From positions 1 to 37,251 of the forward strand of contig DVLB01000026.1 in assembly GCA_018715695.1 (NCBI GenBank): DNA of 37,251 nucleotides, written 5' to 3'. Source of the stretch: Candidatus Galloscillospira stercoripullorum. GTDB lineage: Bacteria; Bacillota; Clostridia; Oscillospirales; Oscillospiraceae. Positions 5,930 to 22,671 of this stretch are shown here, in pieces. The translations under genes were made by a program, and so were the position numbers. Position 1 is the stretch's first letter. Each line of letters opens with the position of its first letter. The notes under the pieces were generated by a model. That model did not search any database. It saw only the letters and a list, made by a program, of their open reading frames with translations, and was not told the DNA's origin.

Positions 5930-6823
5930 TCAGGTTTTTTTGTGTTCCCACTGCCGGTATTCCGCCGCGCGCTGGTACAGGCGGACGTAACTCTCATGCC
6001 GGCTGCGGGGGATCTCCCCGGCAGCCACCGCCTCCAGAACGGCGCACCCCTTCTCCTTGCGGTGGGAGCAGCCTACAAAGCGGCAGCTGTCCAGATAGGG
6101 TCTGAATTCCCGGAAGCACCTGGCCAGCAGCTCTGTCCCCCCGGTCTCCAGTCCGTCCGTATCAAAGGAGGAAAACCCGGGCGTATCCGCTACCACCGCG
6201 CCGTCCCGGAGCCGGAAAAGTTCCACATGGCGGGTGGTATGCCGGCCGCGGCCCAGCTTCTCGCTCACGTCGCCGACGGCCAGGCGCAGCCGCGCCTCCA
6301 GCGCGTTGAGAAGGCTGGATTTGCCCACGCCGGAGTTGCCGGTAAAGGCGGTGGTCTTTCCCCGCAGCAGCTGCCCCAGGGTCTCGATGCCCTCGCCGGT
6401 CTCGGCGCTCACCAGCAGGGTGGGAAAGCCCGCGGCATGGTAGATGTCATAGAGCGCTCCCCCCTGCTCCAGGTCGTTCTTATTGATGCAGATGACGCTC
6501 TCGCACCCCTTGGACTCCGCCAGGGCGGTGGCCCGGTCGATGAGGAAGGGGTCGGTGACAGGGGTGGCGCAGGAGGCCACGATGACCAGCTGATCGATAT
6601 TGGCCACCGCGGGGCGCTGAAACTCATTTTTCCGGGGCAGGATCTCGTCCAGCATCCCGCTCCCATTCCCAAGGTCGGTGAAGCGGACCCGGTCCCCCAC
6701 CAGAGGCGAGATCCCCGCGTGGCGGAACTTTCCTCTTCCCCGGCAGGCGACGGGGGAACTGCCGTCACCGGCGTCCACATAGTAAAAGCCGCTGAGGGCT
6801 TTCATGATGAGCCCTTCACCCAT
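5930..6823 (-). CDS. rsgA: Ribosome small-subunit-dependent GTPase A
   Basis: A 297-residue circularly permuted GTPase that helps late 30S ribosome maturation. An OB-fold covers about 10-65. The GTPase motifs appear in permuted order: NKND (114-117), GNSGVGKS (162-169), DTPG (213-216). A zinc site follows in the classic pattern Cys247-x4-Cys252-x-His254-x5-Cys260. The ATG at 6821-6823 overlaps the prkC stop (TGATG); GGAG lies 8 bases upstream. An ATG six codons further in is an alternative. Position after rlmN-prpC-prkC matches Bacillus, where RsgA (CpgA/YloQ) is a PrkC substrate. A terminator-like hairpin follows the gene. Confidence 0.96.
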   Translation of the reverse strand: MGEGLIMKALSGFYYVDAGDGSSPVACRGRGKFRHAGISPLVGDRVRFTDLGNGSGMLDEILPRKNEFQRPAVANIDQLVIVASCATPVTDPFLIDRATALAESKGCESVICINKNDLEQGGALYDIYHAAGFPTLLVSAETGEGIETLGQLLRGKTTAFTGNSGVGKSSLLNALEARLRLAVGDVSEKLGRGRHTTRHVELFRLRDGAVVADTPGFSSFDTDGLETGGTELLARCFREFRPYLDSCRFVGCSHRKEKGCAVLEAVAAGEIPRSRHESYVRLYQRAAEYRQWEHKKT

Positions 6824-20200: not shown

Positions 20201-21460
20201 TTAACCCCGGATCAGGTTTACCACCACGGTATACCTGCCCACCGCGCCCACGCTGCTGCCGCCGCCGTCCACATGCACGGTGGCCGAGACGGTCTGACGG
20301 CCACCACCGCTGCCATCCAGCTGGGAGAGGTCCGCCTCGATCCGGATCTGGCCCTGGAAGATCTCATCCAGCTCCTCCTGCGGGCCCCGGATCAGGACAG
20401 ACTTGCTCAGGGTCAGCAGCTCGGCGTGGTACCCCTCCGGGATATTCACCAGGTCGATGTTGTCCACGTCGGTAAATTCACGGGTGGAAAGTCCCGTGAT
20501 GGTGAGCGTCACAGTGGCCTCCGTGATGCCGCTCTCGTTTGTAATATTGTCAGACAGTCGGATGGGGAACGTGATCTCATAGTTGGGGGTGTTGGTCACG
20601 ATGGACAGATCCACCTCGCCGATGATCAGCTCCGTAAGGTTGGCCAGCACGGAGGCCGGGCCGGACACGCTGATGGACGCAGGGTCGATCCGGAAGCTCT
20701 CCGGGTCCACGTTGGCCGCCGTGGCTCCGCCGCCGGGCAGGAAGGATACGGAAAGAGGTATCTCCTTTACCACCACCACCGGGTAAATGACATAGACCGA
20801 GGTCTCGTCACAGCGGATATCCAGGCCGGTCAGCTCCTCGCCGTTTTCGTTCATGAACACAAGGGGAAGCTCTCCCTCAAACGTGGCCTCCATATCCTGC
20901 TGTCCCAGAACCACCTCGGCATAGGCCACCTGGCTGATGTCCTCCTCCTTGCCCCGGATGACCACTTTATCCGGCGTAACGGTGAACTCGCCGCCCTGAT
21001 AGCCCTCCGCCACGCTGCCGGTGAATTTGGGCCGGACATCGATCTCCTTGGACGCGAGAGGGGCGACGGTAAACTCGATGTATCTGGATTCGTCATTTTC
21101 GATGGAGATATTGCTGCGGGATATATTGCTGGGGTAGATGATGTCCGCATAGAGGCGGTAGCGGCCGGGCTCCGTGATATTGCTCACGGACACGACCAGG
21201 CTGACGCTCTCCCGGTCCAGCTTGCTCGCCGTATCCCGGTCGGTGCGAAAGCGCAGCGATACCGTCTGCTCATTTCCCTCTGTAATCAGCAGGTTTCGGC
21301 TCTCCAGCAGATCCTCTCCCTGAAATTCCACCGGGATGCCGGTGATGGTCTGCTCGTGGGTAGGATTCACTTCCCCCACCACATAGCTCCAGATCAGCAC
21401 GGAGAGGAGTATGGAGAGGACGACATAGAACGTCTTACTTTCTTTGATCTTTTTCCACAT
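20201..21460 (-). CDS. cdaR: YbbR-domain regulator of diadenylate cyclase
   Basis: A 419-residue protein with one N-terminal membrane helix (about 10-30, FYVVLSILLSVLIWSYVVG) and a long extracellular part of repeated YbbR beta domains, probably four (TITGIPVEFQGEDLL... through the final IRIEADLSQLDG unit). In Bacillus and Listeria CdaR/YbbR binds CdaA and modulates c-di-AMP production. Its ATG lies inside the cdaA coding sequence (26-base overlap), as is usual for the pair. In many Firmicutes glmM follows; here DUF5685 follows instead. Confidence 0.93.
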   Translation of the reverse strand: MWKKIKESKTFYVVLSILLSVLIWSYVVGEVNPTHEQTITGIPVEFQGEDLLESRNLLITEGNEQTVSLRFRTDRDTASKLDRESVSLVVSVSNITEPGRYRLYADIIYPSNISRSNISIENDESRYIEFTVAPLASKEIDVRPKFTGSVAEGYQGGEFTVTPDKVVIRGKEEDISQVAYAEVVLGQQDMEATFEGELPLVFMNENGEELTGLDIRCDETSVYVIYPVVVVKEIPLSVSFLPGGGATAANVDPESFRIDPASISVSGPASVLANLTELIIGEVDLSIVTNTPNYEITFPIRLSDNITNESGITEATVTLTITGLSTREFTDVDNIDLVNIPEGYHAELLTLSKSVLIRGPQEELDEIFQGQIRIEADLSQLDGSGGGRQTVSATVHVDGGGSSVGAVGRYTVVVNLIRG

Positions 21461-22331
21461 CGTCGGCGTCTCCCTTTTTGGCCTTGAATAGGTTGATCAA
21501 GTTGAACTTGCGGCCGTTTCCGCTCTCTTCCTCAGAGATCAGTTCGTTGCGCAAAAGCCGCTCCAGCGTCTCAGGCGCCAGGTGGCGCTTGAGCATTCCG
21601 CCCACCGCCACGGAGATAGAGCCGGTCTCCTCCGAGACGATGGCCACCACGGCGTCGGACTGTTCACTGACGCCGATGCCGGCCCGGTGGCGCATGCCCA
21701 GGTCCTTGGACAGGTTCACATTGCTGGACAGGGGGAGCATGCAGCCCGCTCCCGCCAGCCGTCCGTTGCGGACGATGACCGCGCCGTCGTGGAGGGGCGC
21801 CTTGTTCCAGAAAATGTTTTTCAGCAGCTCGCTGTTGACCTCGGCGTCCAGGGCGGTACCTGTTTTCAGCGCGCTGTCCAGCCGGTTGCTCCGCTCAAAG
21901 ACCATGAGGGCGCCGGTCTTGCTCTGGGAGAGGGAGGCGTAGGCCTCCACGGTCTGCAAAATGGCGTTTTCCATCTCGGTGGGGGTATCCGGGTGGGAAA
22001 AGACGTTGTTCAGGCCCAGCCTGCCGCTGCCCATTTGCTCCAGGAAGCGGCGGATCTCCGGCTGGAACAGGATGACCAGCGCGAGAACGCCCAGCTCCAG
22101 TGTGCGGCTGAGCAGATAGCTGAATACCGTAAGCTGGAAAAAAGACGCCAGTCCGAAGGCCACCAGCACCACAAGCACACCTTTGACGACCTGGCCGGAG
22201 CTGGTACGGCGGATGAGCATCATGAGCTTGTAGATCAAAAATGCCATGATGAGAATATCAAGGATATCGGAAATGCGGATGAGACTGAGATTACTCACCC
22301 AATTTATCAGTAAACTTGACAGCCAGTTCAT
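21435..22331 (-). CDS. cdaA: Membrane diadenylate cyclase CdaA
   Basis: A 298-residue enzyme that makes cyclic di-AMP from two ATP. Three N-terminal membrane helices (about 17-37, 47-66, 68-90) are followed by the DAC catalytic domain with the DGA motif (182-184) and the RHR motif (214-216, in GMRHRAGIG), both intact. ATG at 22329-22331 has AGGTGAT about 8 bases upstream. It heads an operon with cdaR, DUF5685, a J-domain protein and a membrane protein. Two promoter candidates and several stable inverted repeats lie in the 340-base stretch before it. Cyclic-di-AMP governs potassium and osmolyte balance and cell-wall homeostasis. Confidence 0.96.
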   Translation of the reverse strand: MNWLSSLLINWVSNLSLIRISDILDILIMAFLIYKLMMLIRRTSSGQVVKGVLVVLVAFGLASFFQLTVFSYLLSRTLELGVLALVILFQPEIRRFLEQMGSGRLGLNNVFSHPDTPTEMENAILQTVEAYASLSQSKTGALMVFERSNRLDSALKTGTALDAEVNSELLKNIFWNKAPLHDGAVIVRNGRLAGAGCMLPLSSNVNLSKDLGMRHRAGIGVSEQSDAVVAIVSEETGSISVAVGGMLKRHLAPETLERLLRNELISEEESGNGRKFNLINLFKAKKGDADDVEKDQRK

Positions 22332-22356
22332 CCACCATCACCTGCAGTGTAGTTCT

Positions 22357-22393
22357 GAGTCGGCAACCCTCTCCGCCTCAGGGTATGCGACTC
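22357..22393 (-). promoter_or_regulatory. Leader hairpin of cdaA mRNA
   Basis: On the minus strand GAGTCG (22393-22388) pairs with CGACTC (22362-22357). Inside, after symmetric 3-base internal loops, ACCCT (22384-22380) pairs with AGGGT (22370-22366). It starts about 5 bases after the expected transcription start of the nearer promoter and ends about 25 bases before the cdaA ATG. It may stabilise the 5' end or regulate translation. Confidence 0.5.
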
Positions 22394-22404
22394 CATATTT
22401 GATT

Positions 22405-22433
22405 ATTATATAGCCCTGCGCACAAAATTGAAA
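22405..22433 (-). promoter_or_regulatory. Downstream promoter candidate of cdaA
   Basis: On the minus strand TATAAT (22410-22405) is preceded, 17 bases upstream, by TTTCAA (22433-22428), a weak -35. The -35 element touches the end of the 26-base palindrome. The expected transcript would start near 22398 and have a 5' leader of about 65 bases. Confidence 0.5.
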
Positions 22434-22459
22434 GCCTTGAAAGCCGCGGCTTTCAAGGC
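22434..22459. repeat. Perfect 26-base palindrome upstream of cdaA
   Basis: GCCTTGAAAGCCG is followed immediately by its exact reverse complement CGGCTTTCAAGGC. No T run follows on either strand, so it is not a standard terminator. It may be a protein-binding dyad, a cruciform-forming site or part of an intergenic repeat family. Confidence 0.8.
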
Positions 22460-22501
22460 CCTTTGGCTTTGTTCGGTCGCAAGGCTCCGGGGGGCAAGGT
22501 C

Positions 22502-22563
22502 GTCTACTCCCCCTGCGCCTTCCGCTGGCGCGAATAAACCGCAAAGCGGTTTATTCAGTAGAC
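22502..22563. repeat. Three-way-junction inverted-repeat element
   Basis: Three nested perfect stems: an outer GTCTACT (22502-22508) with AGTAGAC (22557-22563); an inner GCGCC/GGCGC hairpin (22515-22531) with a 7-base loop; and an inner GAATAAACCGC/GCGGTTTATTC hairpin (22532-22556) with loop AAA. The second inner hairpin abuts both neighbours with no unpaired base. The outer stem lies right beside the -10 element of the upstream promoter. Origin unknown; a mobile intergenic repeat or a structured leader are the main options. Confidence 0.7.
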
Positions 22564-22566
22564 ATC

Positions 22567-22595
22567 ATTATACTTGATTGCAGAAAAAATGGCAA
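22567..22595 (-). promoter_or_regulatory. Upstream sigma-A promoter of the cdaA leader
   Basis: On the minus strand TTGCCA (22595-22590) and TATAAT (22572-22567) are exactly 17 bases apart, a strong consensus fit. Transcription would start near 22560, inside the outer stem of the three-way element, and give a leader of about 230 bases before cdaA. Confidence 0.7.
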
Positions 22596-22630
22596 GAACA
22601 AGAGCGGTGAATTTTCTTTGAATTCGTTAG

Positions 22631-22671
22631 AAAAGGCTGCCGAAAACCCGCGGTTTACGGCAGCCTTTTTT
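22631..22671. terminator. Bidirectional terminator after the desulfurase-family gene
   Basis: AGGCTGCCG (22634-22642) pairs with CGGCAGCCT (22658-22666), with a further AAACC/GGTTT stem inside. A TTTTTT run follows in the plus direction and TTTTC in the minus direction. It directly follows the stop of the minus-strand gene at 22671 and insulates the cdaA leader from that operon. Confidence 0.8.

Follow-up and report, generated by a model that had tools for sequence, protein, structure and literature searches.

In the genome of Candidatus Galloscillospira stercoripullorum, a run of inverted repeats separates a good promoter from cdaA, and the question raised by this locus is whether the run is a regulatory RNA leader of that gene or something that came to lie there by other means. 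The window, which is the whole stretch of DNA analysed (37,251 nucleotides), carries cdaA on its minus strand; toward cdaA on that strand, the order of features is a TTGCCA-17-TATAAT promoter, the inverted-repeat run, a second TATAAT, and then the gene (Table 1). An initial annotation had described a dual-promoter leader of the c-di-AMP synthase gene, either a regulatory RNA or a repeat element domesticated as a leader. The inverted repeats that it listed are real: the 26-base palindrome, the 11-bp hairpin, the three-way set and a hairpin at 22357-22393 are all present. The minus strand from 22332 to 22600 folds at -111.1 kcal/mol (z = -5.9), with none of 200 shuffles folding as well, and transcription starting at the upstream promoter would take in most of the structured stretch, as had been proposed. 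The stretch is also, as stated there, unlike the ydaO riboswitch: a search of the window against Rfam gave no match at family threshold, ydaO-yuaA (RF00379) included, and all that it has in common with this riboswitch is the c-di-AMP theme of the neighbouring gene.

Table 1. Features of the cdaA upstream region, with coordinates in the window
Feature	Position	Strand	Basis
cdaA, host gene (CdaA_N and DAC domains)	21435..22331	-	Pfam
Right copy of target duplication, ATAAT	22405..22409	-	relatives have a single TATAATAAT here
Inserted element, 157-bp degenerate deletion derivative of the ~257-bp family	22410..22566	-	own-genome copies; boundaries via empty sites
Perfect 26-bp palindrome, tip of hairpin 6	22434..22459	-	inverted-repeat search; family alignment
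Hairpin 5, degenerate remnant	22475..22519	-	read by comparison with family alignment
Three-way junction of the initial annotation	22502..22563	-	read from sequence; compared with full copies
Hairpin 1, intact, 11 bp, GAATAAACCGC/GCGGTTTATTC	22532..22556	-	inverted-repeat search; family alignment A1
Left copy of target duplication, ATAAT, last five bases of the -10 box	22567..22571	-	empty sites of G001 and L190
-10 box TATAAT	22567..22572	-	promoter scan; empty site in G001 and L190
-35 box TTGCCA, ancestral cdaA promoter, external to element	22590..22595	-	promoter scan; kept in element-free relatives

The stable predicted fold, located upstream of cdaA and downstream of a good promoter, is compatible with a cis-regulatory RNA leader dedicated to cdaA that controls expression of the c-di-AMP synthase by alternative folding. 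However, the terminal motif of the element was found in the fetched region around cdaA in none of 29 relatives (0/29), although the promoter is present in them; the same structure precedes many unrelated genes; no Rfam family matches it; and the copy at cdaA is degenerate relative to other copies. Absence in relatives together with presence elsewhere led us to reject a cdaA-dedicated riboswitch. A dedicated leader is exceedingly improbable, and a c-di-AMP regulatory role for the element is unsupported. The initial annotation had itself allowed that many unrelated copies, with no covariation in front of cdaA, would reduce the structure to a simple repeat, and many copies do precede unrelated genes; the covariation that it suggested looking for upstream of cdaA is strong, yet it belongs to the whole mobile family and not to cdaA. 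The structured stretch is best read as a worn copy belonging to a dispersed family of mobile elements and not as a leader dedicated to cdaA, and the c-di-AMP regulatory leader was a false lead, now replaced by a mobile family. Very probably, the stretch is a non-autonomous MITE-like element that entered the ancestral cdaA promoter at its -10 box.

A similarity search of the window's own genome with this region gave partial matches at more than 10 other places, and about 14 copies were gathered by searches of this genome, which is 74% complete. These copies have a common left end, AATGTCTGCTGAAYAAAC, and a common right end, GTTCAGTACGCATT, with a chain of near-perfect hairpins between them. The element contains no gene, and its copies front many unrelated genes. 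A scan for the left end in a collection of 85,000 genomes identified at least 115 loci, and there are at least about 100 distinct sites in other Oscillospiraceae; the named taxa among the matches listed are Flavonifractor, Pseudoflavonifractor, Oscillibacter, Intestinimonas and Limivicinus, along with unnamed Oscillospiraceae or Clostridia. Nine of 157 genomes in an order-level sample matched, with several copies only in members of the window's own family, and no copy was found among the viral contigs, plasmids and phages searched.

Intact copies are about 257 bp long (AATGTCT...CGCATT), and the distance from left end to right end has a sharp peak at 254-257. The family has several properties of a MITE, being short, non-coding and repeated in many copies, with terminal inverted repeats (AATGTCTRCTGAAYAAA / AATGCGTACTGAACAAA, the right end being degenerate in the window copy), target-site duplications, and empty sites in relatives. 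Among 49 distinct sites with both ends, the flanking 5-mers match in 39, although the 5-mer varies between sites, and the other 10 have one mismatch. The duplicated 5-mer of the 39 matching sites is ATAAT at 23, ATTAT at 6, AAAAT at 4 and ACAAT at 3, with rarer ones including ATACT, AGAAT, ACTCC and ACAGC. The bases flanking the duplicated 5-mer are nearly always T and A, and the target therefore reads TATAATA. A duplication of 7 bp, in place of 5 bp with flanking T and A, was considered and rejected: the empty sites of L239, L242, L237, L241 and L247 have TATAATG, in contrast to TATAATA in the left copies of the filled sites, and a difference at position 1 in L100 also contradicts it.

The site at cdaA is empty in the closest relative, G001 of the same genus, which has TTGCCATTTGAGGAGCGATACAGTATAATAATCTAGAATGG, and in L190, which has TTGCCATTTCCCACTGAATCAAGTATAATAATTCAAATGGA; in the window the same site reads TTGCCATTTTTTCTGCAATCAAGTATAAT, then 157 bp, then ATAATAATCAAATATGGA. 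Six copies in another genome, G023, were examined by searching for their joined flanks within its genus, and five of the six insertions correspond to continuous, element-free sequence in G136 at 91-98% identity, several of them also in G149 and G143. In the alignments of these empty sites the promoter is intact and the target (TATAATA, TATAATG or TATACTA) is present once. G023 shares one insertion site (L049/L084) with Flavonifractor sp. An112. A few further sites, of copies in the window's own genome, are spanned by alignments to more distant relatives at 72-78% identity.

The empty sites have a single target, which shows that the element has inserted within the -10 box; the window's two -10 boxes are the duplicated target. 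The first of the two promoters with 17-base spacers that had been proposed, TTGCCA-17-TATAAT at 22595-22567 (minus strand), was found by the promoter scan with 11 of 12 consensus matches, and relatives that lack the element have kept it at cdaA. The second, TTTCAA-17-TATAAT with its -10 at 22405-22410, is weak, with 3 of 6 matches at -35, and escaped the scan; its -10 consists of the right duplication copy, ATAAT (22405-22409), plus base 22410. The "upstream promoter" is thus the one that cdaA had ancestrally, whereas the second -10 is the duplicated target. On the evidence of sequence, the cdaA mRNA is expected to start just inside the element, giving a leader of roughly 220-230 nt versus about 70.

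The window copy has been reduced by deletion. Its left end, GATGTCTACTGAATAAAC, can be compared with the family consensus AATGTCTRCTGAATAAAC; as the right end is degenerate, the boundary on that side was placed by means of the empty site. The copy retains hairpin 1 and, of hairpin 6, the tip, whereas hairpin 3 and most of hairpin 4 are gone, as in L002. The three-way set consists of GTCTACT (22502-22508) and AGTAGAC (22557-22563) around hairpin 1 plus GCGCC (22515-22519) and GGCGC (22527-22531); in it the left terminal repeat GTCTACT pairs with AGTAGAC, across hairpin 1 and the GCGCC/GGCGC hairpin, in an internal stretch joined by deletion, and it is not a conserved feature of the family. The window copy, seen in a single species only, is decaying, and its insertion was probably near-neutral for cdaA. 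Of the suggestion that a repeat had been domesticated as a leader, the repeat element stands, and this degenerate deletion derivative in one species provides no evidence of the domestication. A mobile insertion could nevertheless have been kept at cdaA later, if its hairpins at the 5' end (through stability) or its second -10 usefully altered expression: the copy is in sense orientation, the promoter sequence is intact, and hairpin 1 is perfect at the expected 5' end of the mRNA. The loss of hairpin 3 and of most of hairpin 4, the degenerate right end and the restriction to a single species speak against such retention, which we regard as improbable.

Intact copies are remarkably structured: L151 has six hairpins and a fold z of -20.6. 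In a family alignment of 46 copies (A1), 91.8% of cells pair, falling to 45% or less when partners are slid one to three columns, and 309 cells are doubly changed versus 93.7 +/- 9.5 in shuffles. Among 24 copies that are less closely related, G.T mismatches on the sense strand outnumber A.C by 118 to 67 (P = 0.0002 assuming independent cells, an assumption that fails), and hairpin 3 has no G.T excess. This family-wide excess hints at constraint at the RNA level, and would favour retention of the insertion at cdaA; transcription-linked C-to-T change, however, gives the same bias.

The full element is a tandem of two multi-hairpin sub-elements, A and B. The middle of a full copy reads ...CAGCCATT-GTTAC-AATGCGTA..., so that a right end is followed, after 5 nt, by a left end. 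A script measured this spacer as 5 nt in 44 of 48 copies, and inspection by eye gave the same for the remaining four; the target duplication has this length too. Sub-element A is also found alone, as 103-bp copies with ATAAT on both sides (L110, L165), and there are shorter solo copies with duplications of their own, one of 78 bp (L015) and one of 45 bp that is a single hairpin (L024). Most simply, insertion of one sub-element beside another would have produced the full element, and the spacer would be a fossil duplication. The near-perfect covarying hairpins and the tandem with its 5-bp spacer make origin and mobilisation directly testable.

Two copies of the window's own genome (L015 and L028, contig C103, about 6360-6680) lie within about 150 bp of each other in divergent orientation. 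One of them is the 78-bp solo sub-element, flanked on both sides by GTTAT, which resembles the GTTAC spacer of full elements.

The sites were also examined for promoter features. TTG is found 17 bp upstream of the target at 25 of 106 sites, versus 0-7 at the other spacings from 5 to 31, and -35 sequences with four of six matches are mainly on the left (12/48 versus 4/48 on the right). Targeting of promoters beyond the motif was rejected, TTG at 17 bp being present at 18 of 45 TATAATA sites with the element (40%) and at a similar 24 of 76 element-free TATAATA sites on the same contigs (32%; P = 0.43). Thus, a preference for TATAATA itself explains the -35 enrichment, and TATAATA in these genomes is often a predicted -10 box. 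A built-in outward -35 at the right end was likewise rejected: TTG is at 17 bp in 13 of 48 copies, but four of six matches were found in just 2 of 48. Insertion is oriented, with 45 sites in TATAATA versus 7 in TATTATA (P = 7e-8), a bias that may come from the enzyme or from later selection. Of 39 copies, 31 are followed within 350 nt by a start codon that has a ribosome-binding motif, in most at 30-95 nt. In L150, at position 1318, a short copy lies apparently within a coding region that resembles an IS110-type transposase (by eye only), so insertion outside promoters also occurs.

In the mechanism that we propose, a family that encodes nothing and is built from two multi-hairpin sub-elements in tandem, 5 nt apart, would be mobilised by an enzyme supplied in trans, probably a transposase with a 5-bp staggered cut. 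It would insert at T-ATAAT-A sites in a preferred orientation, duplicating ATAAT; many insertions would land in promoters because TATAATA is often a -10 box, and the -10 would be rebuilt at the left end, with the hairpins becoming part of the mRNA at its 5' end. The cdaA promoter retains its original sequence, and transcription from it would yield a leader longer by about 160 nt. Since the -10 box is the target and is rebuilt by the duplication, the element can enter promoters of presumably important genes, cdaA among them, and leave the promoter sequence undestroyed.

The transposase is put forward only as a probable agent: no autonomous partner with the same 17-bp ends was found in three near-complete genomes, where paired terminal motifs enclose short elements only; a parent sharing fewer bases would escape such a search. 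The missing partner would also suit movement in which folded single strands recombine in a site-specific or structure-directed way, with hairpins as the recognised substrate, as was suggested earlier for bcr repeats, and the extreme hairpin content, evident even in the 45-bp single-hairpin copy, points the same way. A 5-mer that varies between sites and matches within a site, with a single copy in the empty site, is by contrast the expectation for a staggered cut, and we consider recombination of folded strands rather unlikely. A transposase-type cut remains our preferred reading.

The nearest known kinds of element are the structured bacterial MITEs (Correia/NEMIS) and bcr1. The repeats bcr1, bcr2 and bcr3 of the Bacillus cereus group are intergenic, non-coding, structured and MITE-like, often within UTRs (PMC3446304), with a consistent secondary structure (PMC2267715), and their mobility has been linked to a short AT-rich motif, TTTAT (PMC6542083). 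The present element is likewise non-coding and structured with a short AT-rich target, a likeness to bcr1 drawn by description, but differs in its host clade, its target (ATAAT in TATAATA), its length and its two-part tandem of six hairpins. MITEs of the Correia/NEMIS, RUP and ERIC type are short and non-coding, with terminal inverted repeats, a target duplication and base-paired transcripts (PMC2229807); they are typically shorter than 200 bp with TA at the termini, whereas the present element duplicates a 5-bp -10-like sequence, ends in AATG/CATT, is a tandem of two sub-elements, and has no parent transposon found. Mutator-type elements (TnGBS, ISLre2, ISKra4) also insert in an oriented manner at sigma-A promoters, which is explained by their asymmetric ends, their insertion point being 15-17 bp upstream of the -35 in the TnGBS type (PMC3942029). 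Unlike these transposase-encoding elements, the present one is non-coding and lies inside the -10 box, its position being explained by the TATAATA motif without promoter enrichment beyond it.

A literature search, partial in coverage, gave no description of the element family in these bacteria. The family, apparently undescribed, would rewrite 5' leaders in common gut bacteria, and if left unmasked it will mislead searches for leader RNAs in this clade. One may speculate further that it is a new type of structured mobile element, oriented into -10 boxes that it duplicates, so that host transcripts begin with its folded RNA. This RNA would be under selection, as a stabiliser of the 5' end or else because mobilisation requires transcription from the captured promoter, and the element would have been formed by fusion of two shorter elements through one target duplication; we give little credence to this combination.

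Several minor features were noted. Four contigs from two metagenome bins (L076, L085, L101, L135) have a common left flank, GATACTACTCTCCCATTAAAATA, adjoining the element, with different sequence downstream, and in L135 only the first ~25 bases of the element remain; these are possibly a larger repeat with a truncated copy, or assembly chimeras. The hairpin at 22357-22393 (minus strand, GAGTCG.../...CGACTC), which defines the left coordinate of the studied stretch, belongs to the native cdaA leader between element and start codon, with no evident conservation in G001. At 22631-22669, in the interval that separates cdaA from the class-V aminotransferase gene upstream, there is a strong inverted repeat with 18-nt arms (94% complementary) and T-runs on both sides; it looks like a bidirectional terminator, and cdaA is therefore probably not read through from the upstream gene. 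A stand-alone perfect palindrome, CCCTTGAAAGCCGCGGCTTTCAAGGG, was found in G023 (L056/L057, contig C39, 68423-68452); it is like the tip of hairpin 6, lacks the ends of the element, and may serve as a terminator.
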